64,000 bases of DNA from contig NZ_CP080623.1 of the NCBI RefSeq assembly GCF_019599045.1, positions 1,200,501-1,264,500 of the forward strand. Direction: 5' to 3'. Every line of letters starts with the position of its first letter. Position 1 is the first letter of the stretch. This DNA is from Roseovarius sp. SCSIO 43702 (GTDB lineage: Bacteria; Pseudomonadota; Alphaproteobacteria; Rhodobacterales; Rhodobacteraceae). This document shows, piece by piece, positions 192 through 12,552 of the stretch. The notes beneath the pieces are model-generated. The model ran no database searches and was not told the DNA's origin. It was given only the letters and a program-made list of their open reading frames with translations. The translations under genes were made by a program, and so were the position numbers.

Positions 192-836
192 CTACCTCGA
201 CCGCCAAGTGTCGCGCCAGCGTTTGAAGCGCGAGCGCCGGTCGACATAGGCGTCCCCCGCCGCATCCCAGCGGGCGTCGATATCATCGAGCATGGGGTCG
301 ATCCGACGTGCGCGGAAGCGGCGCCAGCGCGCCCAGATCGCCCAGACGAATGCGAAGAAGAGCGTCAGGATGATCGTGTTGACCCAGGGAAACCGCCAGT
401 AATCGGGGCCGGGGACGGGCTTGATCGAGATGGCATTGGGAAAGATCGTCAAGAACTCGTTGCGCCAGCCGTAATGCTTGATCGAGACCCATTCGGGATC
501 GGCCTTGGTCGAAATGGCATCGTTGGCATCGGTATAGAGATTGGCGGTGTCGAACTTGAAGTAGGGCGGCCAGTTCCAGCCCGTATCCTCGTTGCGGTAG
601 ACGATGGGCTTGCCGTTGGGACGCACGGCCTGGATGAACTGCACGTAGCGGCTGTCACGGACGCCCGAGGAGTCGTCGGGTTCGGACCAGAAGATGCGCG
701 TCCAGTCGTCGAGGTTGATGTTTTCCTCGTAGGTGTTGACGATGCGCACCGTGTCGCGTTGCGGCAGCGTATAGTGGAAGAAGGCGGCGACGATGACCCA
801 GAAGGTGATCCAGAACGCCCATTTCACATAGACCAT
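192..836 (-). CDS. DUF1523 family membrane protein
   Basis: This 214-residue protein has an N-terminal membrane segment (about residues 5-22), a roughly 125-residue hydrophilic region rich in Trp and Tyr, and a second membrane segment near residues 150-170. A basic cytoplasmic tail follows (RARWRRFRARR and later). The layout puts the middle part on the periplasmic face. It resembles the alphaproteobacterial family DUF1523, whose function is unknown. It is the last gene of a minus-strand run starting near 7489 and lies 10 bases after the preceding small membrane gene, so it is probably co-transcribed. Family assignment is from memory of the sequence pattern; the role is unknown. Confidence 0.7.
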   Translation of the reverse strand: MVYVKWAFWITFWVIVAAFFHYTLPQRDTVRIVNTYEENINLDDWTRIFWSEPDDSSGVRDSRYVQFIQAVRPNGKPIVYRNEDTGWNWPPYFKFDTANLYTDANDAISTKADPEWVSIKHYGWRNEFLTIFPNAISIKPVPGPDYWRFPWVNTIILTLFFAFVWAIWARWRRFRARRIDPMLDDIDARWDAAGDAYVDRRSRFKRWRDTWRSR

Positions 837-846
837 GACGACCCTT

Positions 847-1113
847 TCAGTGGAAATTGGTCAGATAGATGATGATCCCGACAAGGCAGATGGGGATGAT
901 GTAGACCCCGAGGATCAGCTTGCGACGCACCGAGCCGTCGTATTCCTTGAGCCCCTTCTCGATGAACGCGTCGTAATCCCCTTCGTGGCCGCCTTCCTCC
1001 CATTCTCGCTTGAGCTTGCCACGGCGCACGGAGCGGGACCAGAGCGACAGGATCACGTAGATGATCGTGAGCACCACGAAACCGATGACAACGAGCCGGG
1101 CCAGTGCGAACAT
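847..1113 (-). CDS. small two-TM membrane protein, unknown
   Basis: The 88-residue product has hydrophobic helices at about residues 4-23 and 67-86. Between them is a highly charged loop containing the acidic stretch EWEEGGHEGDYDAF and the basic stretch RRGKLKREW. It sits 4 bases after the DUF6638-like gene and 10 bases before the DUF1523 gene, so it belongs to the same transcript. I do not recognise a named family. The hairpin topology and context suggest a membrane anchor or accessory subunit for the neighbouring proteins, which is inference. Confidence 0.65.
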   Translation of the reverse strand: MFALARLVVIGFVVLTIIYVILSLWSRSVRRGKLKREWEEGGHEGDYDAFIEKGLKEYDGSVRRKLILGVYIIPICLVGIIIYLTNFH

Positions 1114-1117
1114 TCCT

Positions 1118-2467
1118 CTACCTCCTCACCGGGCCCCAAGGGCCCACGCGCGCGATGGTCGCCTCGGAGACGGGCGGCGGCGGGGCGGGGTCCTCCATCG
1201 GTGCGTCATGGCCGAAAAGGGCCTTGCGCGTGCCGAGCTTGTCCACCTGATACTCGTTCACGAGGAAATCGACCACATATTCCTTCTTGGTTTCCGACCA
1301 CGTGCGGTAGCGGTCGTAGAAGGCCTGCTTGTGACAGATGAAGAGCTGCCGGATATCCTTGGGGGCAAGCTCGGCCAGCAGCATGTTGACGAGGTCGGCA
1401 TCGGGCGTGTCGGCGGCGCGGAGCGTGTGGAAATAGGCCGGATGCTCGGAGGTGATGGCGGGCCATGGGCCGTCGTTCTCGGCCCAGTTGACGAGGGCGG
1501 CGAGCGCGTGGAACTCCTGCGGCAGGCGCTCGGCGTTCTGGCGCGCGAGGCGGCGCATGTCGATGCGGGTGAGCCCGGCGAGGTCGAGGCCGCTGTCGGC
1601 CAGCGCGTCGACCACGATGAAATCCATCTTCTGCCGCAGGATCGCGCCCGCGTCGATGCCTCGCGCCTTGACGATGGGCTCGGCCAGCGCGTTGTCTTCG
1701 AGGAAGCGCGCGATGCGGTTGCGGTCGTCGAAGCCGAGCACCTGCGCGATGGGCGCACCGTCGAAGGTGGCGGGGTCGCCGGGGGTGACGAGGGCGGGGT
1801 GCGGCACGGCCTGGAATATGTAGGCGCCGCCGAAATGGGCGGTCCAGAAATTGCGCTGTTCGAAGCTCATCTCGGCCAGCGTCACGGGATTGCGCACGAT
1901 GTCGCCCGTTTCCTGGGCGAGGCCGATCATCTCGGCGATGAGCACGTCATCGAACCAGGCATCCTGCTCGTTGAGGAAGCGGTCGATCTTCTTCTCGAGC
2001 GCGCGAGCCTGACGGAGGGCGCCGCCGGTGGTGTCGGCCTCCACCGTCACGCGGCGGATGTCGAAAAGGCGGGCGGGGGTGGCCATGTCATAGACCGAGT
2101 TGGCCAGCTCGCCCGCCACCGCGTCGCGGGTGGTGAGGGCAAAGAGCGCCGCTTCGTTCGCCTCGATGAACTGCCGCAGGACGCCGCGCGAGGTGGAGAA
2201 CTTGGCATTGAGCAGCGGGGCGGTCTTCTGCTGGGTGGTGAGCAGGATGAACTGCCGGTTGACGCCCGCGTGGTTGAGGTAGTCGTGATCGCCGAACTCG
2301 TGACCCACCTCGGGGGAGTAGCCGGAAATGTCGATGTAGAAATCGGTGAGGGCGGTGGTGCGGCCGGTCAGGTGCTCGAGCGCGCGGTTGTAGCGCTCCA
2401 CGAGGGCGGGGGAGGCCACGTGGATGAGGTTGCCGAACATGAGGCCGGTGCGGATGAGGCGGTTCAT
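1118..2467 (-). CDS. DUF6638-like protein, unknown function
   Basis: A 449-residue soluble protein without signal peptide or membrane segment. It resembles proteins annotated as DUF6638 in Rhodobacteraceae genomes; no enzymatic motif is visible. The first 60 residues are well ordered (TGLMFGNLIHVASPALVERY), the middle is helical and charged, and the last 30 residues are Pro-rich and probably disordered. Its ATG follows directly on the TAA of the upstream orphan gene (TAAATG at 2465-2470), so translational coupling is likely. Family membership is moderately sure. A function together with the AAA ATPase upstream is inferred from gene order only. Confidence 0.6.
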   Translation of the reverse strand: MNRLIRTGLMFGNLIHVASPALVERYNRALEHLTGRTTALTDFYIDISGYSPEVGHEFGDHDYLNHAGVNRQFILLTTQQKTAPLLNAKFSTSRGVLRQFIEANEAALFALTTRDAVAGELANSVYDMATPARLFDIRRVTVEADTTGGALRQARALEKKIDRFLNEQDAWFDDVLIAEMIGLAQETGDIVRNPVTLAEMSFEQRNFWTAHFGGAYIFQAVPHPALVTPGDPATFDGAPIAQVLGFDDRNRIARFLEDNALAEPIVKARGIDAGAILRQKMDFIVVDALADSGLDLAGLTRIDMRRLARQNAERLPQEFHALAALVNWAENDGPWPAITSEHPAYFHTLRAADTPDADLVNMLLAELAPKDIRQLFICHKQAFYDRYRTWSETKKEYVVDFLVNEYQVDKLGTRKALFGHDAPMEDPAPPPPVSEATIARVGPWGPVRR

Positions 2468-2932
2468 TTAATCTTCGCGCTCCACCAGAAGGTCGCACTT
2501 CTTTTCTCGATAGGCTTCTTCAGCCGTTATCATCTGCAACTCTCTGAGCTCTTCGTAGGGAGCTTGTAGGTCAGAATCGAAAGTTTTCTCTTCTGCTTCT
2601 GCGAGAAACTGTGCCCACATGTAACCCAGCGAAAAATCAACAGTTGGACCCCGGATCAATCGTAAGCTGATTCCAATAGGCACTTCGTCAGTGTCTTCTT
2701 CGGTGAGTTTGCCTTCATTCCAAGCGGTAACGAAACCCGTTAGTTTTTGGTGTCCACTCTCAAAAAGGTACAGGCCTATTTTTTGATATTTTTCGGTTTT
2801 GGCGGCCAATGCTGCACATTCCCATTGGGCGTACGCTAACTTACCCATCTTGTTGTAATCCCCGTCTGCGTCCTGCGCTTCCGACGGCATCGCGAATGAG
2901 GCGAGCGCGAAAATAGATAGGGCAACTTTCAA
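2468..2932 (-). CDS. secreted orphan protein in an AT-richer island
   Basis: The likely start is the TTG at 2930-2932, because it is followed at once by a textbook signal peptide (MKVALSIFALASFAMPSEA, cleavage probable before QDADG). That gives 154 residues. Upstream codons in the same frame only translate the palindromic repeats, so the longer frame is rejected. The mature part is acidic, with two Cys (one in QWECAALAA, one in KKCDLL), and matches no family I know. Base composition and codon use are markedly more AT-rich than the flanking genes, which suggests acquisition from elsewhere. The stop abuts the next ATG, so it is embedded in the operon. No clear Shine-Dalgarno precedes the TTG. 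Confidence 0.5.
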   Translation of the reverse strand: MKVALSIFALASFAMPSEAQDADGDYNKMGKLAYAQWECAALAAKTEKYQKIGLYLFESGHQKLTGFVTAWNEGKLTEEDTDEVPIGISLRLIRGPTVDFSLGYMWAQFLAEAEEKTFDSDLQAPYEELRELQMITAEEAYREKKCDLLVERED

Positions 2933-2987
2933 CTTGTGGTTCTGAAACAGTGGTAATGATCTCGTTGAGATATCATGCAAACCACTC

Positions 2988-3259
2988 GCCCGGCCCCCGG
3001 CCGGGCCGCGCCCTCCCTCCCCCAGGAGGGCGCGTTGGCGACGTCGTGCCTCGCTCGTGCGGCGTGTGAGCTTTGGGATGTGCGCTCTGAATATCCGTTC
3101 CGCACGCGCCCACCAGGGAGGGCACGGCCCGACCGGGGACCTTACAAGATGCACGCCCCGGGCTTGACCCGGGGCCTCCTTCAGCGATCGCAGAGGCCCC
3201 GGGTCAAGCCCGGGGCGGGCGGGGATAGGATCAGGTAGGTCCCGGGTCAGGCCCGGGAC
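2988..3259 (-). repeat. cluster of REP-like palindromic elements
   Basis: Four perfect inverted repeats are packed into about 270 bases between the orphan gene and the AAA ATPase gene. They are: 8-base arms at 2988-2995/2999-3006; 10-base arms at 3007-3016/3025-3034; 24-base arms at 3155-3178/3193-3216 with a 14-base loop; and 8-base arms at 3239-3246/3252-3259. The last two share the core CCCGGGTCA(A/G)GCCCGGG. This is the form of the intergenic palindromes common in GC-rich alphaproteobacteria. No coding signal is seen here beyond accidental open frames. They may act as mRNA-stabilising or attenuating hairpins inside the operon. Confidence 0.75.
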
Positions 3260-3273
3260 GGGTGGCACGGGGG

Positions 3274-5208
3274 TCATTTCTTCCCCTCCAGATACCGTTT
3301 CTTAGCCTCTTCCGTTCGCCCATACTCCCGCACCATGGCCTCGATGGCGGCTTCGTCGGACTTGTCGGCATAGCGGAATTCGCTGTCGGCGTAGCGGTTG
3401 ATCTCCTGGATGACCATCTCGACTGTGATCGGCTGGCGCAGCTCCTCGATCATGGCTTTCTTCTCGTCGTAGCTCTTGAAGAGGAACAGGTCGGGCTCTT
3501 CCATCCACTCGTCCGGCAGTTCGAAATCCATCGCGCGGACCTTCACCGCGTCGGTGATGTTCTTGATCGCGCGGCCGGTGAAGCGGGGGTCGGCCTCCTG
3601 GATGGCCTTGAGATAGGTGCCGAGCTTGGCGATCGTGTCGAGTTGCCCGAGATCGTCCGCCACGCGCTCGTAGACGCGCAGGAGCCTGTCCTCGTGGGGC
3701 CTCATGTGGCTCTCGAAGCTCTTGGCGACGGCCTTCTTGATCTCCTGCGCGGCATAGACCTCGTGATCGCCCAGCGGGATGTCGTGGTTGCGGCCCATGA
3801 GCAGGTGGAGGATGTCGATGTAATCCTCGCGCGTCTGCGGCCCGTCGACGAGGAAGCGCGCGCCGGCGCGTTGGCGGAGCGCGTCGTCCACGTTCTCGGG
3901 GTAGTTGGAGAACATGCCGAAGGTGCAGTTGCCGCGCACCACCGTGTTGGCGCCCGCGAAGCTCTCCATCAGCACGGCGGTGATCTCGAGCTGGCCCGCC
4001 GAGGACTGGCGGTCGCCGCGCTTCCCCGCAAGCTGGTCGATGTCGTCGATGGTGCCGAAGCCGATTACGCCGGGATCGAGGACGTTGTTGATGAACGCCT
4101 TGGCGTTCTGCGCCGACTTGCCCTGGTAGCTGTCGATGCTCTCGGTCGAGAGGTTCTGGTAGCGGAAGGGATAGCCCGCGGTGTCGCAATAGCCCTTGAT
4201 GAGCCCCGCCATCATCTGAATGAGCGTGGTCTTGCCCGTGCCCGGCATCCCGTCGCCCATGAAGGTGAAGATGAAGCCGCCCAGTTCGGCGAACGGGTTG
4301 AGGCGGCGGTCGAAATCGTAGGCCATCAACATCTTGGAAAGCTTCAGCGCCTGGTATTTCGCGATGTGGTTGCCCACGACCTCGTGCGGTTTCTTGAAGG
4401 TCATGGTGAGGGTCGAGGATTTTCCCTTGGACGAGGGGGTGAAGCCGCGAATGGTGAAATCATCCGCCTCGACGCGCCAGGAGGCGCCGGTGAAGGGGGC
4501 CGTGCGCTGCGCGGTCTGGGCGCGCTGGGCGGCCTTCTCCATGAGCGCCTCGGAATAGGCGAGCGCGGTGGCAACGAGATGGGCGTCGTCGGGGGCGTGG
4601 CGCGCGATCTTCTGGTCAAGCTCCCACAGTGCGCCGTGAAGGGCCATCTGGGCGTTGTCGGTCAGAAGTTCCTCGGCCTCGCCCACCTCGACCGTGGTTT
4701 CGGAGCCGTGAGGCGCAAGCAGGAATGCCGTGGCATTGCCGAAGACATGCGCCACTATGAGTGCCTCGGCGGTCATGAGGTCGGTGAACTCGGTCTTGCG
4801 GTCGGCGGGAAGGGAGCCTGCCAGGTTCTTGCGGCGCAGGTCCGAAAGGCCCGTGGTCTCGGCGTAGGTTTCTCCCATCGCCATCGCGATGGAAAGCGCG
4901 CGGCGGAGCGCGTGCAGGAGCGTGGCCTGCAAGGGCGAGGTGAGCGGATCGTCGTCATCGGCGGAGGTGATCCGCCCGGCGAGGTGGACGCCCTCGGGGC
5001 GCGCGGTCTGGCGGGTGACGAGCCCCGGCGTGGTGGAGCGGAAGCGGCGGCGCGTGCCGATCCCGGAGGAGCGTTCGGAGGTATCGGTGGCCGCGGGTTT
5101 GCCGACCCGGGGCGCATGGTCGAAGCCCCCGAGCATCGCGTTGGCGGCCTCGTAGTGCTTGGTGATGTCGGCCTCGCGAAGCTCCATCGTGTCGGCGGTA
5201 AGGGTCAT
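3274..5208 (-). CDS. AAA family ATPase with an Asp-for-Glu Walker B
   Basis: A 644-residue cytoplasmic protein. The first ~290 residues are unlike any named domain. A single AAA module follows: Walker A GDGMPGTGKTT near 316-327; Walker B-like segment GTIDDIDQLAGKRGD near 382-396; a sensor-1 type Asn in FSNYPENVDDAL near 432-443; arginine-finger candidates in RQRAGARF. The pattern is that of classical AAA proteins ('IDEIDxLAxKR', 'xTNxPExxDxAL'), but the catalytic Glu position is Asp. It lies between two uncharacterised genes (43 bases after the 372-aa gene). By family it should be a ring-forming remodelling ATPase; substrate unknown. Confidence 0.75.
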   Translation of the reverse strand: MTLTADTMELREADITKHYEAANAMLGGFDHAPRVGKPAATDTSERSSGIGTRRRFRSTTPGLVTRQTARPEGVHLAGRITSADDDDPLTSPLQATLLHALRRALSIAMAMGETYAETTGLSDLRRKNLAGSLPADRKTEFTDLMTAEALIVAHVFGNATAFLLAPHGSETTVEVGEAEELLTDNAQMALHGALWELDQKIARHAPDDAHLVATALAYSEALMEKAAQRAQTAQRTAPFTGASWRVEADDFTIRGFTPSSKGKSSTLTMTFKKPHEVVGNHIAKYQALKLSKMLMAYDFDRRLNPFAELGGFIFTFMGDGMPGTGKTTLIQMMAGLIKGYCDTAGYPFRYQNLSTESIDSYQGKSAQNAKAFINNVLDPGVIGFGTIDDIDQLAGKRGDRQSSAGQLEITAVLMESFAGANTVVRGNCTFGMFSNYPENVDDALRQRAGARFLVDGPQTREDYIDILHLLMGRNHDIPLGDHEVYAAQEIKKAVAKSFESHMRPHEDRLLRVYERVADDLGQLDTIAKLGTYLKAIQEADPRFTGRAIKNITDAVKVRAMDFELPDEWMEEPDLFLFKSYDEKKAMIEELRQPITVEMVIQEINRYADSEFRYADKSDEAAIEAMVREYGRTEEAKKRYLEGKK

Positions 5209-5251
5209 GTCGTGTCTCTCTCAGGTGACCGGCCGAGGCCCGGCGGAGGTT

Positions 5252-6370
5252 TCAGTATCTCAGGACGCTGCCCGTGGGGCCGACCACGTATTTCGTCACG
5301 CTGGCGAAGCCCGCCGGGTTCTTCTCGGCCAGGATCTGGTAGGGGCGTTCGGGAAGGATGATCGCACGTTCCTGTCGCGTGGCGCCGGTATCGACGCCGC
5401 GGCCCGAGAAGGGGTCGAGCGCGAAGATCTCGCGTTCGACCGTGCCGAACCAGCCGGATTTCTCCTCCTCGACGCGTTCGCTTTCGAGCACTTCGTCGGT
5501 CCAGGCCAGCGCCCAATCCTGGTCGGACGCCGCGCTGGCTTCGGCCAGAACCTCGCGGAGGGGACCGGACTGCTGGGTGTATTCATGCGAATACATCGGC
5601 CCGATGTGCAGCCGGCGCAGGCGTTTGGGGTGCAGGTCGTCGAAGTCGCGATCGAAGGCGCGGGCGATGGTGACGAGCTTCAGCCCGCCCAGAGCCTGGC
5701 CCATGAGATGCGCCTGCACTTCGGGCCAGCGCGTCGTGTCGCGGCCCAGCGCGGTGCCGCCGGTGTCCTCGACCTCCATGAGATAGATCGTGGGCAGGTT
5801 GACCTGGCTGTCGTAGACGGCCCAGTGCAGCAGGTAGCGCAGGCGTCCGGGCGTCGCGTCGAGCACCTTGCCGCGCGGGTCGTTGCGCGCCCAGAAGAGT
5901 TCCCCGCGGGCGAGTTCCTCGTAGTAGAGACGCTGGGACATGGCGAATTGCAGGCGCGTCGGGATCTCGCGCCGGCCGACGATCTCCTCGATCATGCGCC
6001 GCTTGAGCGCGTCGCTGTCGGGCATGTTTTCGAGATGCTGCGCGGCCTGGTGCGCGTCGTTGGCCATGATCATCAACTCGTTGAAGACGGGAAAGCCGCT
6101 TTCGACCACGTCCATCGAGAGGGGGGCGACGGGCCGCCCCGTGTCGCGCCCGACGAGGAGGTATTTCATCGAGAGCGCGCGGAAGGTGTAGCCCAGTTGC
6201 TGAACGTAGGTGGTGAGCACCTCGATCTCGTGCGGGTCCAGATCGCCGCGCGCCTGCATGAGCGCGGCAACTCGCGGCAAATGGCCCATGATCCGCTCGA
6301 ACCGCGTGAAATAGCGGCGCGAGGCGTGCAGGTCGCGCAAGGGGAAGTGATCGGAAGTGACGTCGGTCAT
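5252..6370 (-). CDS. conserved hypothetical protein in the AAA operon
   Basis: A 372-residue soluble protein with no signal peptide or membrane helix and no motif I recognise. The first half is helical and rich in Met and Gln (residues 20-160). The C-terminal part contains strands and ends in SVTKYVVGPTGSVLRY. It lies 42 bases after the coiled-coil gene and 43 bases before the AAA ATPase gene on the same strand, so co-transcription is very likely. Gene position suggests an adaptor or substrate for the ATPase, but nothing in the sequence proves this. Confidence 0.6.
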   Translation of the reverse strand: MTDVTSDHFPLRDLHASRRYFTRFERIMGHLPRVAALMQARGDLDPHEIEVLTTYVQQLGYTFRALSMKYLLVGRDTGRPVAPLSMDVVESGFPVFNELMIMANDAHQAAQHLENMPDSDALKRRMIEEIVGRREIPTRLQFAMSQRLYYEELARGELFWARNDPRGKVLDATPGRLRYLLHWAVYDSQVNLPTIYLMEVEDTGGTALGRDTTRWPEVQAHLMGQALGGLKLVTIARAFDRDFDDLHPKRLRRLHIGPMYSHEYTQQSGPLREVLAEASAASDQDWALAWTDEVLESERVEEEKSGWFGTVEREIFALDPFSGRGVDTGATRQERAIILPERPYQILAEKNPAGFASVTKYVVGPTGSVLRY

Positions 6371-6412
6371 CTTGGTCGAACTGGCCCCGTCGCTCGCGAT
6401 GATTGAACCTCC

Positions 6413-7489
6413 TCAGCCTCCATAAAGGTTGCTGTCGTGCTTCTCGACGATCTCCTGGAAGCGGCGGGCGAAGCGTTCGTCGGCCTTGGCCTTCTGCTCG
6501 AGCACGTCGCGGGCGAAGACCATGTGGTCCTCGTGCGCCTCGAGCATGTCCGCCATCTTCTGATTGGTGGCGGCCCCTATGCCGGCCATGGCCGTTTGCG
6601 CCTCCTGGTCGGTCTGCACGCCGATCTCGTTGATGCGGTGGGCCACGTCCTGCTGCTGCGCGGTCTTGAGCGATTTCGACAGCGCGTCATAGAGCACCAC
6701 GCGCTGCTTGGTGTCGGTTTGCAACTTGTTGATGAGCACCATCTGGGTCGCCGCCTGGTTCTGGAGACTGTCGACCCAGGTCTTGCCCTTCTCGATATAG
6801 CGCTCCAGCGTCTGCGACTTGGCAAGCTTGACCTGCTCATCCTGCACCATGGCGTTGTAACGGGTGTTGAGGTCGGCCAGTTCGGTCTCGAGCTTGGTGC
6901 GCTTGGCCGCGTCGGTCTCGCTCGCGATGGCGTTCTCGAGGCGGATGATCTCGGGGTCCATCGCCTTGATCTCCTCGCGCACGCTTTCCAACTCGCCCAC
7001 GGTGAATTCGCGTTCGTCGAGGGTCTCGGTGAGGTTCGTCTCGACCTTTGCCTTCTGATCCTCGAGCACGGCGAGCTGGCTTTCCAGGAGCCTGGTGATG
7101 ACGTCGGACTTGGCGATGAGATCCTGCAACTTGTCGTCTATATTGGCGGTGCGCATCCGGTCCTGACGCATGCTGTCTGCCTTGGCCTTGGAGAAGATGC
7201 CCACGAAGCTTTCCCAGCCGGTCTTGTTGCGCATCTCGTCGAAATCGCGCGAGAAGGCGGCGGTCACGTCGTCGAGGCCCATGATCAACTCGGCGATGTT
7301 GGCGTTCATGATCTCGGTATGCGCATGCACGTCCTCGAGGGTGGCGTTCTCGATGTCGAGGGTGGCATCCTCGCCAGACTCGATCTTGGCGCGGGCGGCC
7401 TCGATGCGACTGGTGATCTCGGCGATCTTGGTCTGTGCCTCGGCGACCTGCGCCTGGCTTTCCTTCACCTGAGTTTCGAGATTGGCCAT
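6413..7489 (-). CDS. long coiled-coil protein heading the AAA operon
   Basis: The 358-residue product is almost entirely alpha-helical, with heptad-like patterns over residues 1-45 (METQVKES-type start, Ala/Glu/Lys-rich) and about 120-260. There is no Cys, no signal peptide and no membrane helix. The central part (around ERYIEKGKTWVDSLQNQAATQ) loosely recalls the helical bundle of TelA-type toxic anion resistance proteins and PspA-like proteins, but I cannot assign it to either. It is probably the first gene of the minus-strand operon; the region upstream (7490-7813) separates it from divergent yajC. A scaffold or filament role with the AAA ATPase is inference. Confidence 0.6.
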   Translation of the reverse strand: MANLETQVKESQAQVAEAQTKIAEITSRIEAARAKIESGEDATLDIENATLEDVHAHTEIMNANIAELIMGLDDVTAAFSRDFDEMRNKTGWESFVGIFSKAKADSMRQDRMRTANIDDKLQDLIAKSDVITRLLESQLAVLEDQKAKVETNLTETLDEREFTVGELESVREEIKAMDPEIIRLENAIASETDAAKRTKLETELADLNTRYNAMVQDEQVKLAKSQTLERYIEKGKTWVDSLQNQAATQMVLINKLQTDTKQRVVLYDALSKSLKTAQQQDVAHRINEIGVQTDQEAQTAMAGIGAATNQKMADMLEAHEDHMVFARDVLEQKAKADERFARRFQEIVEKHDSNLYGG

Positions 7490-7813
7490 CTGTCCCCCTG
7501 GGGCTGGGCGCGACGAGGCCGCGCGTGTTTGGTGATTGGCGGCAATATATGGTCATCGCGTGCGGGTTGAAACGATTTGATGGGGGCACGGCACAGAAAA
7601 GCGCCGAAAGGAGGCATGGCGATGCTCCCGAAAGCAAAGGAACCATGCAAGCGCGCCGCACGCGGCGAGGGCGCGGGCAGCACCGATCAGGAGACCGTGA
7701 CGCTGCGGCCCGTCCCGGCCCGCCTTTCCTGCCTTGCAAATAGGGGCGCGCGCCCATAGGTTCGCGCCAAATTTCGCGGGCGGGATCGCCCCCATCGGAC
7801 AAGGAGCATTCCC
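7490..7813. promoter_or_regulatory. divergent intergenic region between the AAA operon and yajC
   Basis: These 324 bases separate two divergent transcription units and must hold both promoters. No convincing -35/-10 pair stands out in this GC-rich stretch. The yajC Shine-Dalgarno (AAGGAGC) is at 7801-7807. The only other signal is a strong GGAGG at 7610-7614 leading into a small open frame described separately. Confidence 0.35.
7622..7759 (+). CDS. possible 45-aa peptide upstream of yajC
   Basis: An open frame from ATG 7622 (an alternative ATG lies at 7616) is preceded by AAAGGAGG with about 7 bases spacing, and ends 54 bases before yajC. The peptide is basic, with two Cys and Pro-rich stretches. 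No family is recognisable and the composition is not clearly coding. It is listed because of the strong ribosome binding site; it may equally be a chance frame. Confidence 0.2.
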   Translation: MLPKAKEPCKRAARGEGAGSTDQETVTLRPVPARLSCLANRGARP

Positions 7814-8098
7814 ATGGAAGGCGGCGCACTGGCCCAGTTTCTACCCCTCATCCTGATCTTCGCGATCATGTATTTCCTGCTGATCCGCCCGCAGCAGAAG
7901 AAACTCAAGGAACATCGCGCGATGGTCGAGGCGCTGCGCAAGGGCGACCGGGTGGTCACACAGGGCGGCCTGATCGGGAAGGTGACGCGCGTGCAGGACA
8001 ACGAACTCGAGATCGAGATCGCCACCGGCGTGAAGGTCCGCGTGGTGCGGCATACGATTGCCGAGGTGCGCTCGAAGACGGAGCCGGCGGAGAGCTGA
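7814..8098 (+). CDS. yajC: preprotein translocase subunit YajC
   Basis: A 94-residue inner-membrane protein with one N-terminal transmembrane helix (about residues 8-25, ending LLIRPQQKK) and a small cytoplasmic domain containing GDRVVTQGGLIGKV. These are the hallmarks of YajC, the accessory subunit that associates with SecD-SecF and SecYEG and assists protein export. Length is normal for the family. The start is supported by AAGGAGC six bases upstream. It precedes secDF by 66 bases, the usual arrangement. Confidence 0.95.
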   Translation: MEGGALAQFLPLILIFAIMYFLLIRPQQKKLKEHRAMVEALRKGDRVVTQGGLIGKVTRVQDNELEIEIATGVKVRVVRHTIAEVRSKTEPAES

Positions 8099-8164
8099 AC
8101 CGCGAAGCGGCGCGCATCGTCGCGCCACGTCTGATCCTGTCCCAAACCCGAAAGTCCCCGCGAC

Positions 8165-10798
8165 ATGCTGAAGATCGAGCTTTGGAAACGCGTTCTCATC
8201 TGGGGCACCGTGCTCCTCGGGCTTCTGCTTGCGACGCCGAATGCGTTCTATCCCCGCGTCGAGGCACATAACGACGCGGAGGCCGCGATCGAGCGGGGGG
8301 AGGATCCTGCGCAATATGCCGAGGCGCTCGAGGCATGGCCCGACTGGTTGCCCTCGGGGCTCGTCAACCTGGGGCTTGATCTGCGGGGTGGCGCGCATCT
8401 GCTGGTCGAGGTCAAGGTCGAGGAAGTCTACGAGGCGCGGCTCGAGGGAATGTGGCCCGAGGTGCGCGACGTCCTGCGCGAGAACCGCGACGAGGTGGGG
8501 CCGATCCGCCTTCAACAGGAAACCGGCGACAGGCTCGTGGTGCGGCTCGTGGAAAAGCCCGAAGCGGTGGGACAGGCGGCGCAGCTTGTCCGGGGCCTTG
8601 CGCGGCCCGTCACGTCGCTGACCGGGGCGGGGGCCAATGACATCGAGGTCACGACCGAGGGCGACAGCGTCATCGTGCGCCTGAGCGAAGCCGAACAGCG
8701 CGCCACCGACGAACGCACGGTGCGCCAGGCGCTCGAGATCATCCGCCGCCGGATCGACGAGGTGGGCACGCGCGAACCCACGATCCAGCGGCAGGGCGCC
8801 GATCGCATCCTGATCCAGGTGCCGGGTATCGGCAGCGCCGCGGAGTTGAAGGACATCATCGGCACAACCGCGCAACTCACCTTCCAGCCGGTCGTCGGAG
8901 CCACGACGAATCCCGATGAGCGGCCCGGTTCGGGCAACGAGATCCTGCCGTCGCTCGACGAGGAGGGGCAGTACTACATCCTCGAGCGCGCGCCGGTCGT
9001 CACCGGCGAGGAACTGGTCGATGCGCAACCCGATTTCGACCAGAACGGACGCCCCGCCGTGTCCTTCCGCTTCAACCCCACGGGCGCGCGGAAATTCGGT
9101 GACTACACCGCCGAGAATATCGGCAACCCCTTCGCCATCGTCCTCGACGACGAAGTCATCAGCGCCCCCGTCATCCAGAGCCACATTCCCGGCGGATCGG
9201 GGATCATCACCGGGCGTTTCACGGTCGAGGAATCGACCAATCTCGCCGTTCTCCTGCGCGCCGGTGCGCTGCCTGCGGGGCTCGACTTCCTCGAGGAGCG
9301 GACGATCGGGCCGGAACTCGGGGCCGACAGCATCGAGGCGGGGCAGATCGCCTGTATCGTGGCTTTCGTGCTGGTGCTGGCTTTCATGTGGGCGAGCTAT
9401 GGCACCTTCGGGTTGTTCGCGAATATCGCGCTCATCATCAACGTGGGGCTGATCTTCGGGCTGCTCAGCCTTATCGGGGCGACGCTGACACTGCCGGGGA
9501 TCGCGGGGATCGTGCTGACCATCGGGATGGCGGTCGACGCGAACGTGCTGGTCTTCGAGCGGATCCGCGAAGAGATGAAATCGGCCAAGGGGCCGGCGCG
9601 GGCCATCGAACTGGGCTACGAGAAGGCGCTGAGCGCCATCGTCGATGCCAACATTACCACGCTCATCACTGCCGTGATCCTCTTTGCCATGGGCTCGGGA
9701 CCGGTGCGCGGCTTCGCGATCACGCTGGGTCTCGGGATCATCACTTCGGTCTTCACGGCCATCTTCGTGACGCGCCTCCTCGTGATCATGTGGTTCGAGC
9801 GCAAGCGGCCGAAATCGGTGCTTCAGGGCAAGTACCTGAAGCTCGTGCCGAGCGAGACCGCCATCGACTTCTTCCGTCTGTGGAAGATCTGGCTTGGCAT
9901 CGCGGCGACGCTGATCGTGGTGGCCTTCGGATCGTTCATGCTGCAAGGCCTGAATTACGGCATCGACTTCAAGGGCGGCACCACGATCCGCACGCAGAGT
10001 GCCGAGCCGGTGGACGTGGGCCAATACCGCGACGCGGTGAACACTCTGGAGCTTGGCGACGTGTCGATCTCGGAGATCTTCGACCCGACCTTCGGGCCTG
10101 ACCAGAATGTCGCGATGGTTCGTATCCAGGCGCAGGACGACACGGAGAGCGTGAGCCCGGAGTTGATCCTCGCGGTCGAGGAGGCGCTGAAGGCGAGCGT
10201 GCCGGATATCGAGTTCACCTCGGTCGAGAGCGTGGGACCGAAGGTGTCGGGCGAGTTGATCCAGACCGCCGCCATCGCCGTCATGCTCGCCATAGGGGCG
10301 GTGCTTGTCTATATCTGGCTGAGGTTCGAATGGCAGTTCGCGCTGGGTGCGGTGATCGCGCTGGTCCATGACGTGATCCTGACCATCGGCATCTTCTCGG
10401 AGCTTCAGATCCAGTTCGACCTTGCCATCATCGCCGCGCTTCTGACCATCGTCGGCTATTCGTTGAACGATACGGTCGTGGTTTTCGACCGGGTGCGCGA
10501 GAACTTGCGGAAATACAAGAAAAAGCCCTTGGCCGAGGTGCTGAACCTGTCGATCAACGAAACGCTGAGCCGGACGATGATGACCTCGGTGACGACCCTT
10601 CTTGCGCTGGGCGCGCTCTTCGCGCTGGGCGGGGACGTGATCCGCGGCTTCGTCTTCGCGATGATCTGGGGCGTGATCGTCGGCACCTATTCGTCGGTTT
10701 TCGTGGCGTCGACGGTGCTTCTCTGGCTCGGGGTGAAGCGCGACTGGTCGAAGCCGGACGCGAGCGCGGGCACGAACTATGCCAACGTGGATGCCTGA
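8165..10798 (+). CDS. secDF: fused protein translocase subunit SecDF
   Basis: The 877-residue product joins SecD (residues about 1-540) and SecF (about 555-865) in one chain. The SecD hallmark GLDLRGG is near residue 69 and the SecF counterpart GIDFKGGT near residue 598. Each half carries a first membrane helix, a large periplasmic domain and five clustered helices, the second cluster containing SLNDTVVVFDRVREN. The protein uses the proton motive force to pull preproteins across the inner membrane after SecA. Fusion is common in Rhodobacteraceae. It is followed with overlap by a TauE-type gene. Confidence 0.95.
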   Translation: MLKIELWKRVLIWGTVLLGLLLATPNAFYPRVEAHNDAEAAIERGEDPAQYAEALEAWPDWLPSGLVNLGLDLRGGAHLLVEVKVEEVYEARLEGMWPEVRDVLRENRDEVGPIRLQQETGDRLVVRLVEKPEAVGQAAQLVRGLARPVTSLTGAGANDIEVTTEGDSVIVRLSEAEQRATDERTVRQALEIIRRRIDEVGTREPTIQRQGADRILIQVPGIGSAAELKDIIGTTAQLTFQPVVGATTNPDERPGSGNEILPSLDEEGQYYILERAPVVTGEELVDAQPDFDQNGRPAVSFRFNPTGARKFGDYTAENIGNPFAIVLDDEVISAPVIQSHIPGGSGIITGRFTVEESTNLAVLLRAGALPAGLDFLEERTIGPELGADSIEAGQIACIVAFVLVLAFMWASYGTFGLFANIALIINVGLIFGLLSLIGATLTLPGIAGIVLTIGMAVDANVLVFERIREEMKSAKGPARAIELGYEKALSAIVDANITTLITAVILFAMGSGPVRGFAITLGLGIITSVFTAIFVTRLLVIMWFERKRPKSVLQGKYLKLVPSETAIDFFRLWKIWLGIAATLIVVAFGSFMLQGLNYGIDFKGGTTIRTQSAEPVDVGQYRDAVNTLELGDVSISEIFDPTFGPDQNVAMVRIQAQDDTESVSPELILAVEEALKASVPDIEFTSVESVGPKVSGELIQTAAIAVMLAIGAVLVYIWLRFEWQFALGAVIALVHDVILTIGIFSELQIQFDLAIIAALLTIVGYSLNDTVVVFDRVRENLRKYKKKPLAEVLNLSINETLSRTMMTSVTTLLALGALFALGGDVIRGFVFAMIWGVIVGTYSSVFVASTVLLWLGVKRDWSKPDASAGTNYANVDA

Positions 10799-11546
10799 CG
10801 GTCTGCTCCAGACCTTTCAGACCAACGGCATCTGGTGGCTGATCCTGACCATGTCCGTCGCGGGGATCGTGCGCGGCTTCACCGGGTTCGGCACCGCGCT
10901 CATCTTCGTTCCGGTGGCGGGGCTGTTTCTCGGTCCGGCGCAGGTGGTGGGGACGATCACCATGACCGGAATCGCGAGCACGATCGCACTATTGCCCAAG
11001 GCGTGGCGGCATTCGGACCGGGGCGAAGTGGGCCTTCTGCTGCTCGCGGCGCTGCCGATGGTGCCGGCGGGCCTTTGGCTCATGCAGGCGATGGAGGCGA
11101 CCGCGGTGCGCTGGGTGGTCTCTGTGATCGCCGGCGGAACGCTGCTCGCGCTTGTCTCGGGCTGGCGCTATACGATGAAGGTCGGCCTGCTCGGGGCGGT
11201 TGCGATCGGGGCGGCGGCGGGCCTCATAGGTGGCATGACGGGGCTGACCGGCCCTGTGGTGATCCTGTTCTACCTTGCCGGTCAGTCGATGGTGCAATCG
11301 GTTCGGGCGAACACGATCCTCTTTCTCGCGGGGCTCGACATCGTGATCGTCGCCAACCTGTTTCTCACGGGCGGAGTCGAGACGCGGATCGTCTGGCTCG
11401 CCCTCGTGCTGGCCGTGCCCTATTTCATCACCACGATGATCGGGCAGGCGCTGTTTGATCCCGCGCGCGAGAAGAGCTATCGCTTGCTCGCGTTCACGCT
11501 GATCGGGCTGGCGGTGTTGGGCGGATTGCCGATCTGGCAGGGATGA
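10779..11546 (+). CDS. TauE/SafE family sulfite exporter-type permease
   Basis: A 255-residue integral membrane protein with about eight hydrophobic segments. It starts with the family-typical TM containing GIVRGFTGFGTAL and has a repeat of that motif in the second half (AAAGLIGGMTGLTGPVV). TauE/SafE proteins move small anions such as sulfite, sulfonates or organic acids across the inner membrane; the substrate here is not deducible. The frame begins at ATG 10779 inside the end of secDF; a second ATG at 10791 may be the real start. It is tightly linked to secDF and the Mth938-like gene. Confidence 0.8.
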   Translation: MPTWMPDGLLQTFQTNGIWWLILTMSVAGIVRGFTGFGTALIFVPVAGLFLGPAQVVGTITMTGIASTIALLPKAWRHSDRGEVGLLLLAALPMVPAGLWLMQAMEATAVRWVVSVIAGGTLLALVSGWRYTMKVGLLGAVAIGAAAGLIGGMTGLTGPVVILFYLAGQSMVQSVRANTILFLAGLDIVIVANLFLTGGVETRIVWLALVLAVPYFITTMIGQALFDPAREKSYRLLAFTLIGLAVLGGLPIWQG

Positions 11547-11562
11547 CGCGGAGGAGAGTATC

Positions 11563-11916
11563 GTGCAACTCAACGAGATGGAATTCCAGAGCGCCACGCC
11601 CATCGACGGCTATGGTCCCGGCTTCTTTCGCGTGGGGGGGCAGGTGCTCGAGGGGCCGATCGTCGTCACCGAAACCGGCGCGAAAAGCTGGGGCGGGCTG
11701 ATGGACGAGGCGATGCTCGTCGAACTGACGGATGTCGTCGACGTCATCTTCATCGGAACGGGCGCCCAGATCGCGCCCCTGCCCGAGGGGCTGCGCGAGA
11801 CGCTCGAGGGTCACGGGCTCGGCGTCGAGATCATGGCCTCGGGCGCGGCGTGCCGGACCTACAACGTGCTTCTCTCGGAAGGGCGCCGCGTGGCCGCGGC
11901 CCTCATCCCGGTCTGA
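11563..11916 (+). CDS. Mth938-like domain protein (NDUFAF3/DUF498 type)
   Basis: This 117-residue protein starts at GTG 11563 behind GGAGGAGA. It shows the Mth938 pattern: an N-terminal beta region with DGYGPGFFRVGG, a central VIFIGTGAQIAPLP segment and a C-terminal ACRTYNVLLSEGR helix. The fold is shared with the mitochondrial complex I assembly factor NDUFAF3. Bacterial members commonly sit between secDF and ccm genes, as here. The precise role in bacteria is not settled; a link to membrane complex assembly is inference. Confidence 0.85.
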   Translation: MQLNEMEFQSATPIDGYGPGFFRVGGQVLEGPIVVTETGAKSWGGLMDEAMLVELTDVVDVIFIGTGAQIAPLPEGLRETLEGHGLGVEIMASGAACRTYNVLLSEGRRVAAALIPV

Positions 11917-11922
11917 GCGCTC

Positions 11923-12552
11923 ATGCCGGTCGAGCCCCTTCTGTCGGCACGGTCCCTGCGCGTGGCGCGTGGTGGCGTCGATGTGCTGGAGGGGGTGGAC
12001 CTGAATGTCGCGCCGGGCGAGGCAGTCATCCTGCGTGGACCGAACGGGGTGGGCAAGACGACGTTGCTTCGGGTGCTCGCGGGCATACAGCCGCCACGGG
12101 CGGGAGCGATCGTCCGCGCGCCGGATTGCGCGGTGTTGGCGGGACACAAGGACGGGGTGAAACCGACGCTGAGCGTGGCCGAGAACCTGGGCTTCTGGGC
12201 GCAGGTATTCGGCGGACGTGACATTTCGCGCGCGCTCGGCGCCTTCGACCTTGCCGCGCTGCGGGACCGCCTGGCAGGGACGCTATCGGCCGGCCAGACG
12301 CGGCGGCTGGGCCTTGCGCGGCTGCTGGTGGCGGGGCGCAAGCTCTGGCTTCTGGACGAGCCGACCGTCTCGCTCGACACGCGGGCGGTGGCGATGTTCG
12401 CCGACGCCGTGCGCGCGCATCTCGCCGGTGGAGGCGCGGCGGTGATCGCCACCCATATCGAGCTGGGTCTTGCCGAGGCGCGCGAGATGGAACTCGAGCC
12501 GTTTCGTGCGAGGATCCCGGTCCCGGATGACCCGGACGAGGCATTCCTGTGA
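11923..12552 (+). CDS. ccmA: heme exporter ATP-binding protein CcmA
   Basis: A 209-residue ABC ATPase with Walker A GPNGVGKTT near residue 38, signature LSAGQTRR near residue 120 and Walker B KLWLLDEPT near residue 140. It powers the CcmABCD complex, which releases holo-CcmE for heme delivery to apocytochromes c in the periplasm. Length is normal. The start ATG follows six bases after the previous stop and its own end overlaps ccmB by four bases, so expression is coupled. Confidence 0.93.
   Translation: MPVEPLLSARSLRVARGGVDVLEGVDLNVAPGEAVILRGPNGVGKTTLLRVLAGIQPPRAGAIVRAPDCAVLAGHKDGVKPTLSVAENLGFWAQVFGGRDISRALGAFDLAALRDRLAGTLSAGQTRRLGLARLLVAGRKLWLLDEPTVSLDTRAVAMFADAVRAHLAGGGAAVIATHIELGLAEAREMELEPFRARIPVPDDPDEAFL

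Follow-up and report, generated by a model that had tools for sequence, protein, structure and literature searches.

Does the orphan gene that interrupts a conserved AAA ATPase operon of Roseovarius belong to that operon or mark a place where genes are exchanged, and what would such an operon be for? The question is raised by a 64,000-nucleotide stretch of Roseovarius sp. SCSIO 43702 (contig NZ_CP080623.1, positions 1,200,501 to 1,264,500), here called the window, in which seven minus-strand genes run from 7489 to 192 in the order CC, P372, AAA, orphan, DUF6638, TM88 and DUF1523. Comparison with related loci found that the order of the six named genes is fixed, that the AAA–DUF6638 junction is a slot whose cargo genes, in part of defence-type families, turn over between relatives and often overlap their neighbours by start and stop codons, and that the operon itself is mobile. 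Neither the mobile unit nor the systematic slot is visible from one genome; both are seen only by comparison.

A total of 147 loci were compared, comprising 80 named loci (the best 80 of 580 stretches encoding a relative), 19 from the phylum set, 45 from the family set and 3 plasmid records, with the 45 AAA-bearing family stretches coming from genomes of different genera. By AAA DNA these reduced to 143 distinct loci, on which the counts given here rest. Gene order was identical in all 141 distinct loci with at least two operon genes, and CC preceded P372 in each of the 137 that had both on the stretch. The arrangement is conserved far beyond chance. The initial annotation of the window had proposed a conserved unit and had named the scattering of its genes as singletons in most relatives as the finding that would speak against it; such scattering was confined to a few exceptions. 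All six genes were present in 117 loci, and 14 others carried CC, P372, AAA and DUF6638 without TM88 and DUF1523, eleven of them being rhizobial-type or Vibrio loci and three being cut by contig ends; 10 were otherwise incomplete and 2 had AAA alone. TM88 was not detected in L018 and L122, for which contig ends are not the full explanation. Across 299 phylum genomes, AAA and the DUF6638 family (PF20343) each occurred in 20, and these were the same 20 genomes, ten from the window's family, eight from genus g27, one other from the same class and one from another class. The loci lacking the two membrane genes have surroundings of their own: on large plasmid-classed Vibrio records (L140, 11936–16738, and L142) the core operon is directly followed by mfd with no membrane gene, whereas in the g27 loci examined and on Sinorhizobium pSymB the core is followed by a DUF2333 protein and formate–tetrahydrofolate ligase, with thymidine kinase upstream, the DUF2333 membrane protein standing in place of TM88 and DUF1523 in rhizobial-type loci.

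The junctions between these ordered genes differ greatly in what they hold. Slot 3, between AAA and DUF6638, was filled in 115 of 137 distinct loci, with a length of 180 bp or more and a maximum of 2.4 kb, while slot 1, between CC and P372, reached 180 bp in 78 of 137, mostly with small membrane-protein open reading frames (ORFs). Slot 2, between P372 and AAA, was 180–5000 bp long in 15 of 140 loci, with one further case of 5.6 kb; at least 180 bp was found between DUF6638 and TM88 in only 2 of 121 loci and between TM88 and DUF1523 in none of 121. Altogether, 256 slot ORFs of at least 65 aa in operon direction fell into 139 clusters, 99 of them singletons, and none of the 40 multi-member clusters was found in more than one slot. 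The larger slot-3 ORFs also differed in composition from the genes around them, as 54 of 58 with at least 180 aa lay below the core-gene GC content of their own locus (mean difference over the 58, 11 points). On these data the existence of a hypervariable cargo slot at the AAA–DUF6638 junction is not in doubt.

Cargo was fitted closely into this junction. Of the 112 loci whose cargo measured 90 aa or more, 82 had their first cargo start within −30 to +25 of the AAA stop, 80 had their last cargo end within −14 to +12 of the DUF6638 start, and 64 combined the two. Overlaps of exactly 4 bases with the neighbouring gene were seen in 51 loci at the cargo start, in 63 at the cargo end and in 30 at both ends; cargo starts were set to the furthest-upstream permitted start codon, and some may therefore be too early. 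The AAA–DUF6638 gap was shorter than 150 bp in 18 of 136 measured loci, three of which had AAA and DUF6638 directly overlapping by 4 bases. Therefore, cargo often swaps one overlapping junction for two.

The contents of the slot changed rapidly. When pairs of loci with slot 3 filled in both were ranked by AAA identity, the same cargo cluster was shared by 1 of 11 pairs at 97–100%, 20 of 163 at 94–97%, 6 of 15 at 90–94%, 5 of 62 at 85–90%, 227 of 3339 at 75–85% and 105 of 2735 at 50–75%. Cargo thus turns over between sister species. At one and the same chromosomal site within the genus, three loci had a slot-3 protein of 122–153 aa from a single cluster, and others had one of 249 aa or of 309 aa.

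To describe the cargo, a set of 48 proteins 140 aa or longer was scanned, obtained from a list of 53 by omitting six likely false frames or second ORFs and adding the window orphan. Pfam returned 18 families, including DUF559 in four proteins, AbiJ_NTD4 and DUF2971 in two each, DUF4145 in two (weak), and Mrr, putAbiC, DUF433 and HNH in one each. Up to 12 of the 48 carried one of these named families, a count that leaves DUF4145 aside and in which one member could hold two families. PADLOC matches comprised PDC-S37, Hhe, PDC-S31, PDC-S02 and type IV restriction models, and NCBIfam matches comprised DUF559, antiphage ProA, Hhe and STM4504/CBY_0614. Representatives are the Mrr protein of L016, the DUF2971/PDC-S31 protein of L004, the DUF559 protein of L131, the AbiJ_NTD4 protein of L032, the DUF433 protein of L045 and the cargo of L059, HNH-type by PADLOC; slot 3 of Sinorhizobium contains an annotated endonuclease-domain gene with an insertion sequence element. 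PADLOC gave no match for the cargo of L033, L037, L025, L029, L069 and L032. The control set, 46 flank genes of 140–345 aa from the same loci, yielded 84 Pfam families, mostly ordinary enzymes among the first 25 of the 84. Known families are therefore scarce among the cargo; the recognised minority leans to defence, and many of the cargo proteins are small membrane proteins.

The operon as a whole proved to be an accessory element. AAA was detected in 50 of 120 family genomes, each of a different genus, and in 15 of 40 same-genus genomes. Twelve of these 15 carriers, the window included, had all six genes, one had five and was cut by a contig end, one was partial (L246) and one was a decayed relic (L247). 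This relic, like L233, consisted of parts of CC, P372, DUF6638 and an AAA that contains an in-frame stop, and it shows that the unit, besides being absent from some genomes, is also lost by decay. Within the genus the operon occupied at least four contexts. Six genomes carried it beside rlmB, two further contexts were shared by three genomes and by two, and in the window it lies next to yajC, as it does in the named Roseovarius nubinhibens (L011). At the rlmB site the flanking genes lay 8.2–17.8 kb apart in the six genomes with the operon versus 0.25–2.7 kb in 16 without it there; five more genomes without it between these genes had gaps of 5.8–24 kb and 12 were uninformative. An empty site at the window's own location was not found among 20 same-genus stretches upstream of yajC (two shorter than 3.4 kb), which lacked the window's transporter genes except for one distant 29% match and thus gave no clean filled and empty pair. 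Finally, a genome of another class, G050, encodes an AAA 72% identical to that of the window, above the 60% of the family member G175. The patchy presence, the several contexts, the filled and empty rlmB site and the G050 identity point to an operon that is transferred and lost as a unit.

Patchy presence, unit-wise movement and a slot partly occupied by nuclease-type or Abi-type (abortive infection) genes fit a defence system with plug-in effectors. We therefore read the operon as an accessory, horizontally moving AAA+ system directed against phages or mobile elements and equipped with exchangeable effectors, and give this reading a probability of roughly 0.5. The core of CC, P372, AAA and DUF6638, joined in the window's family by two membrane genes, would be a sensor or assembly powered by ATP and reacting to the entry of phage or mobile DNA. 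The slot would carry a co-expressed effector or back-up defence gene (a nuclease, an Abi-type protein or a membrane protein), which would be swapped as invaders adapt, often with its overlapping start and stop codons kept. Translational coupling, co-regulation and any physical contact between cargo and core are likewise putative. That this amounts to a new class of mobile immune machine, with the four-protein AAA core as a platform and plug-in effectors that are swapped at start/stop junctions and so become translationally coupled at once, is a more tentative proposal.

A number of observations weigh against a defence role, and many of them would suit a doubtful but serious alternative, in which the core would be a physiological machine of accessory nature, serving for example the envelope or stress responses and taking no part in immunity, and the junction a permissive, already transcribed landing site at which defence genes and selfish genes gather, much like a miniature defence hotspot. 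AAA is mostly 71–81% identical across the genera of the family, a slow core evolution unlike that of many defence genes. Slot 3 is shorter than 180 bp in 22 of 137 distinct loci, and cargo is therefore dispensable. Parts of the core can be missing: no DUF6638 lies beyond AAA within 10 kb in L003, 5.9 kb in L205 and 5.7 kb in L217, L246 has only CC, P372 and AAA within its stretch and no nearby DUF6638, and the contig L068, from an alphaproteobacterial metagenome-assembled genome, encodes a 76% identical AAA at 10001–11929 with no partner within 10 kb on either side. A rearranged, a lost or a misassembled copy are all conceivable for this lone gene. PADLOC, run at E up to 0.1 on five window core proteins (TM88 left out) and four from Vibrio, contained no model specific to the core, with P372, DUF6638 and DUF1523 of the window giving no match. 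The rhizobial-type copies share common flanks (thymidine kinase, DUF2333 and formate–tetrahydrofolate ligase), and the DUF2971 cargo family of L004 matched 3 of the 120 family genomes, in none of the three within the slot. Moreover, the majority of cargo has no recognised family, the window's own cargo had no defence match in PADLOC, and no relative was found among 50,697 phage records. The 46 control proteins matched 11 PADLOC models, mostly generic (MotB, RtcR, TnsC; best mad2 at 1.9e-17), and PADLOC counts are not decisive because control genes also match. A landing site in a physiological operon nevertheless accords poorly with the distribution of the unit, which is patchy in one genus, has several locations and may be found or missing at one and the same site; a physiological core operon does not usually behave in this way. 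Two further cargo families, too, are nearly bound to the slot, that of L033 occurring in 2 of the 120 genomes, both times in the slot, and that of L037 in 3, twice in the slot.

A further account, which we regard as improbable, keeps to the membrane-linked remodelling machine of the initial annotation and takes the slot protein for a fast-diverging, often membrane-borne adaptor or substrate. It draws on the classical AAA domain and the predicted helical partner, and on the many predicted transmembrane (TM) segments in the cargo: by simple hydropathy, 100 of 152 slot-3 ORFs and 63 of 74 slot-1 ORFs of at least 75 aa had one, versus 10 of 46 control proteins, which are longer than the slot ORFs. 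Yet the cargo falls into many unrelated clusters (256 ORFs in 139) and includes soluble nucleases, and it is therefore not one diverging adaptor; TM88 and DUF1523 were not detected in the Vibrio and rhizobial-type versions, and an Asp in place of the usual Walker B Glu makes ATP hydrolysis by AAA uncertain. Least likely by far, and largely refuted, is that the cargo signal is an artefact of calling ORFs in GC-rich intergenic repeats. A part of the high-GC slot ORFs probably represents false frames, and the repeats do produce spurious stretches, the first 115 residues of the long window ORF among them, but exact 4-base overlaps, the drop in GC content, Pfam and NCBIfam matches and 40 recurring clusters are impossible from chance frames.

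The defence reading can be set beside known systems. Core loci of BREX (bacteriophage exclusion) hold embedded nucleases within or beside the core genes, of PD-(D/E)XK, HNH, HEPN and other types, according to one report (PMC12839542), and a multi-gene, ATPase-centred locus holding unrelated nucleases is common to both. The present operon differs in that its insert occupies a single fixed junction and frequently overlaps both neighbours by 4 bases. The BREX core proteins BrxC, PglX and PglZ gave no PADLOC match at E up to 0.1 among the nine core proteins scanned and none in Pfam among the seven window proteins, and Pfam found neither a methyltransferase nor PglZ among the window operon proteins. 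The hotspots cDHS1 and cDHS2 of Pseudomonas aeruginosa have fixed flanks and variable, lower-GC content made of defence genes and genes of unknown function, and the flanks of cDHS1, which spans 1–224 kb, are core genes in every isolate of the study (PMC10250203). Variable defence content between fixed genes is a likeness, with only a minority of the present cargo recognisable as defence; unlike those flanks, the flanking operon genes here are accessory and mobile (12 of 40 same-genus genomes for the operon, 50 of 120 family genomes for AAA), and the slot does not exceed 2.4 kb.

Among AAA-based systems, IetA resembles the AAA protein in its AAA domain, the Vibrio homologue matching the PADLOC IetA model at 6.8e-7 and the window AAA only at 0.015. 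The partner of IetA in IetAS is a subtilisin-like protease, and Pfam at E up to 1 listed no protease family among the seven operon proteins. In the open-licence literature of PMC, DUF6638 appears in no paper, DUF1523 in four and DUF2333 in one, and no description of the operon was found among the results listed by wider searches there. Were the core a defence system, it would be an overlooked operon, with its AAA in 50 of the 120 sampled genera of one family and also in rhizobia and Vibrio, and the AAA–DUF6638 slot would be a ready collection of genes and a cheap route to undescribed anti-phage functions. Were it not, it would still be a striking natural case in which single genes are exchanged within an operon while start and stop codons continue to overlap, raising the question of which recombination process is responsible. 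In both cases DUF6638, DUF1523 and P372 acquire a context that can be tested.

The core begins in the window with CC (6413–7489, minus strand), a 358-aa protein identified by its ORF, alignment and a structural model, which is separated by an empty slot 1 (6371–6412, 42 bases) from P372 (5252–6370, minus strand; ORF and model), a 372-aa protein without a Pfam family. The equally empty slot 2 (5209–5251, 43 bases) precedes AAA (3274–5208, minus strand), a 644-aa classical AAA ATPase with the Walker B motif IDDID, which matched PF00004 at 4e-12 with 47.1 bits against a gathering cut-off of 21.2 and is single-copy in the source genome. Beyond slot 3, the DUF6638 protein (1118–2467, minus strand) belongs to PF20343 with 762 bits against a cut-off of 27. 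Accessory to this core, and not detected in rhizobial-type and Vibrio loci, are TM88 (847–1113, minus strand), an 88-aa protein 4 bases further on, and, after another 10 bases, the DUF1523 membrane protein (192–836, minus strand), a member of PF07509 with 220 bits against a cut-off of 23. The ORFs, coordinates and Pfam families agree with the co-linear genes and short gaps described in the initial annotation. CC gave only sub-threshold Pfam matches, P372 and the orphan gave none, and no NCBIfam model exceeded its cut-off for the window operon proteins. By ORF calling, the operon is bordered outside DUF1523 by an opposite-strand gene of a transporter block and outside CC by yajC and secDF, also on the opposite strand. 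A terminator scan gave 6 hits versus 6.1 in shuffled sequence and a promoter scan 2 versus 1.0, both promoters being on the other strand.

By hydropathy, CC, P372, AAA and DUF6638 are soluble, while TM88 and DUF1523 have two TM segments each. The membrane link proposed in the initial annotation is thus not supported as a defining trait, as the four core proteins are soluble and neither TM88 nor DUF1523 could be detected in the eleven rhizobial-type and Vibrio loci. Its classical AAA ATPase was borne out by the PF00004 match and by 144 distinct AAA sequences, the window's included, in which Walker A, a sensor-like Asn and three following Arg residues are invariant. Walker A, the Asn and the Arg-finger region are shared with classical AAA ATPases, and Walker B differs. 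Most AAA proteins have Asp-Glu in Walker B, with the Glu being catalytic, whereas the second acid here is Asp (D388 D389) in 144 of 144 sequences. A long N-terminal region of AAA has no Pfam family, and its sequence neighbours in the PDB are distant, the best being an i-AAA protease domain (5.6e-6), alongside fidgetin-like, katanin and Vps4 proteins. PADLOC matches to the window AAA were generic only (TRIP13 at 2e-4 and the IetA match given above), and those to CC were weak (JetC at 3e-4, REase_II at 1e-3). Several JGI protein entries call the window-type AAA "EcfA2", which looks like a misannotation.

The structural model of CC is all helix at moderate confidence (predicted local distance difference test, pLDDT, 73), in keeping with the helical nature claimed for it earlier. 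Fold matches of CC, ClyA-type pore formers and SMC coiled coils among them, were below informative levels. An identity of CC as an ESCRT-III/PspA or TelA protein was not supported, since Pfam listed neither TelA nor PspA-Vipp1 for it at E up to 1 and none of its fold matches was decisive; it may still be related to them in fold. P372 was modelled with a pLDDT of 84.6 and a predicted template modelling score of 0.84; it had no significant fold match, with weak T-fold rows over residues ~173–336.

The lesser slot 2 has a character of its own. When filled, it holds a recurrent lipoprotein-like family of ~140 aa (for example in L008, L029, L031, L049, L067 and L194), and 8 of 12 slot-2 ORFs had a lipobox-like motif. 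The P372–AAA junction of R. nubinhibens (L011, ~4413–10000) contains the 5.6-kb insert, which includes a 1144-aa ORF that we take to resemble DnaE2, and adjacent ORFs that may be ImuA/ImuB-like.

The window's own cargo lies at 2468–2932 on the minus strand and ends directly at the DUF6638 start, with 0 bases between them. The initial annotation had set this orphan gene aside, and it turned out to occupy a systematic cargo slot. The 269-aa ORF called here (3277–2468) is over-long because its first 115 residues run through palindromic repeats. The gene most likely starts at a TTG at 2932 and encodes 154 aa with a signal-peptide-like start; its protein-database entry has this length, and the starts of the two known relatives differ from this position by only a few residues. 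No match was found in other genomes among the 120 family genomes; the two relatives are P0243 (43%, from a protein database search) and a protein in the same slot of Leisingera aquaemixtae (L063; 44%). The palindromic repeats lie in the 5′ part of slot 3 (2992–3265) and consist of repA (2992–3141), with 27-nucleotide inverted ends, and repB (3151–3265), with 28-nucleotide inverted arms. Across 2.9 Mb of related loci, repA matched in slot 3 only (6 matches in 5 loci, two of which are from the same genome), and repB matched 10 times in slot 3, 7 times in slot 1 and 4 times elsewhere. These repeats may take part in the exchange of cargo or be its remnants.

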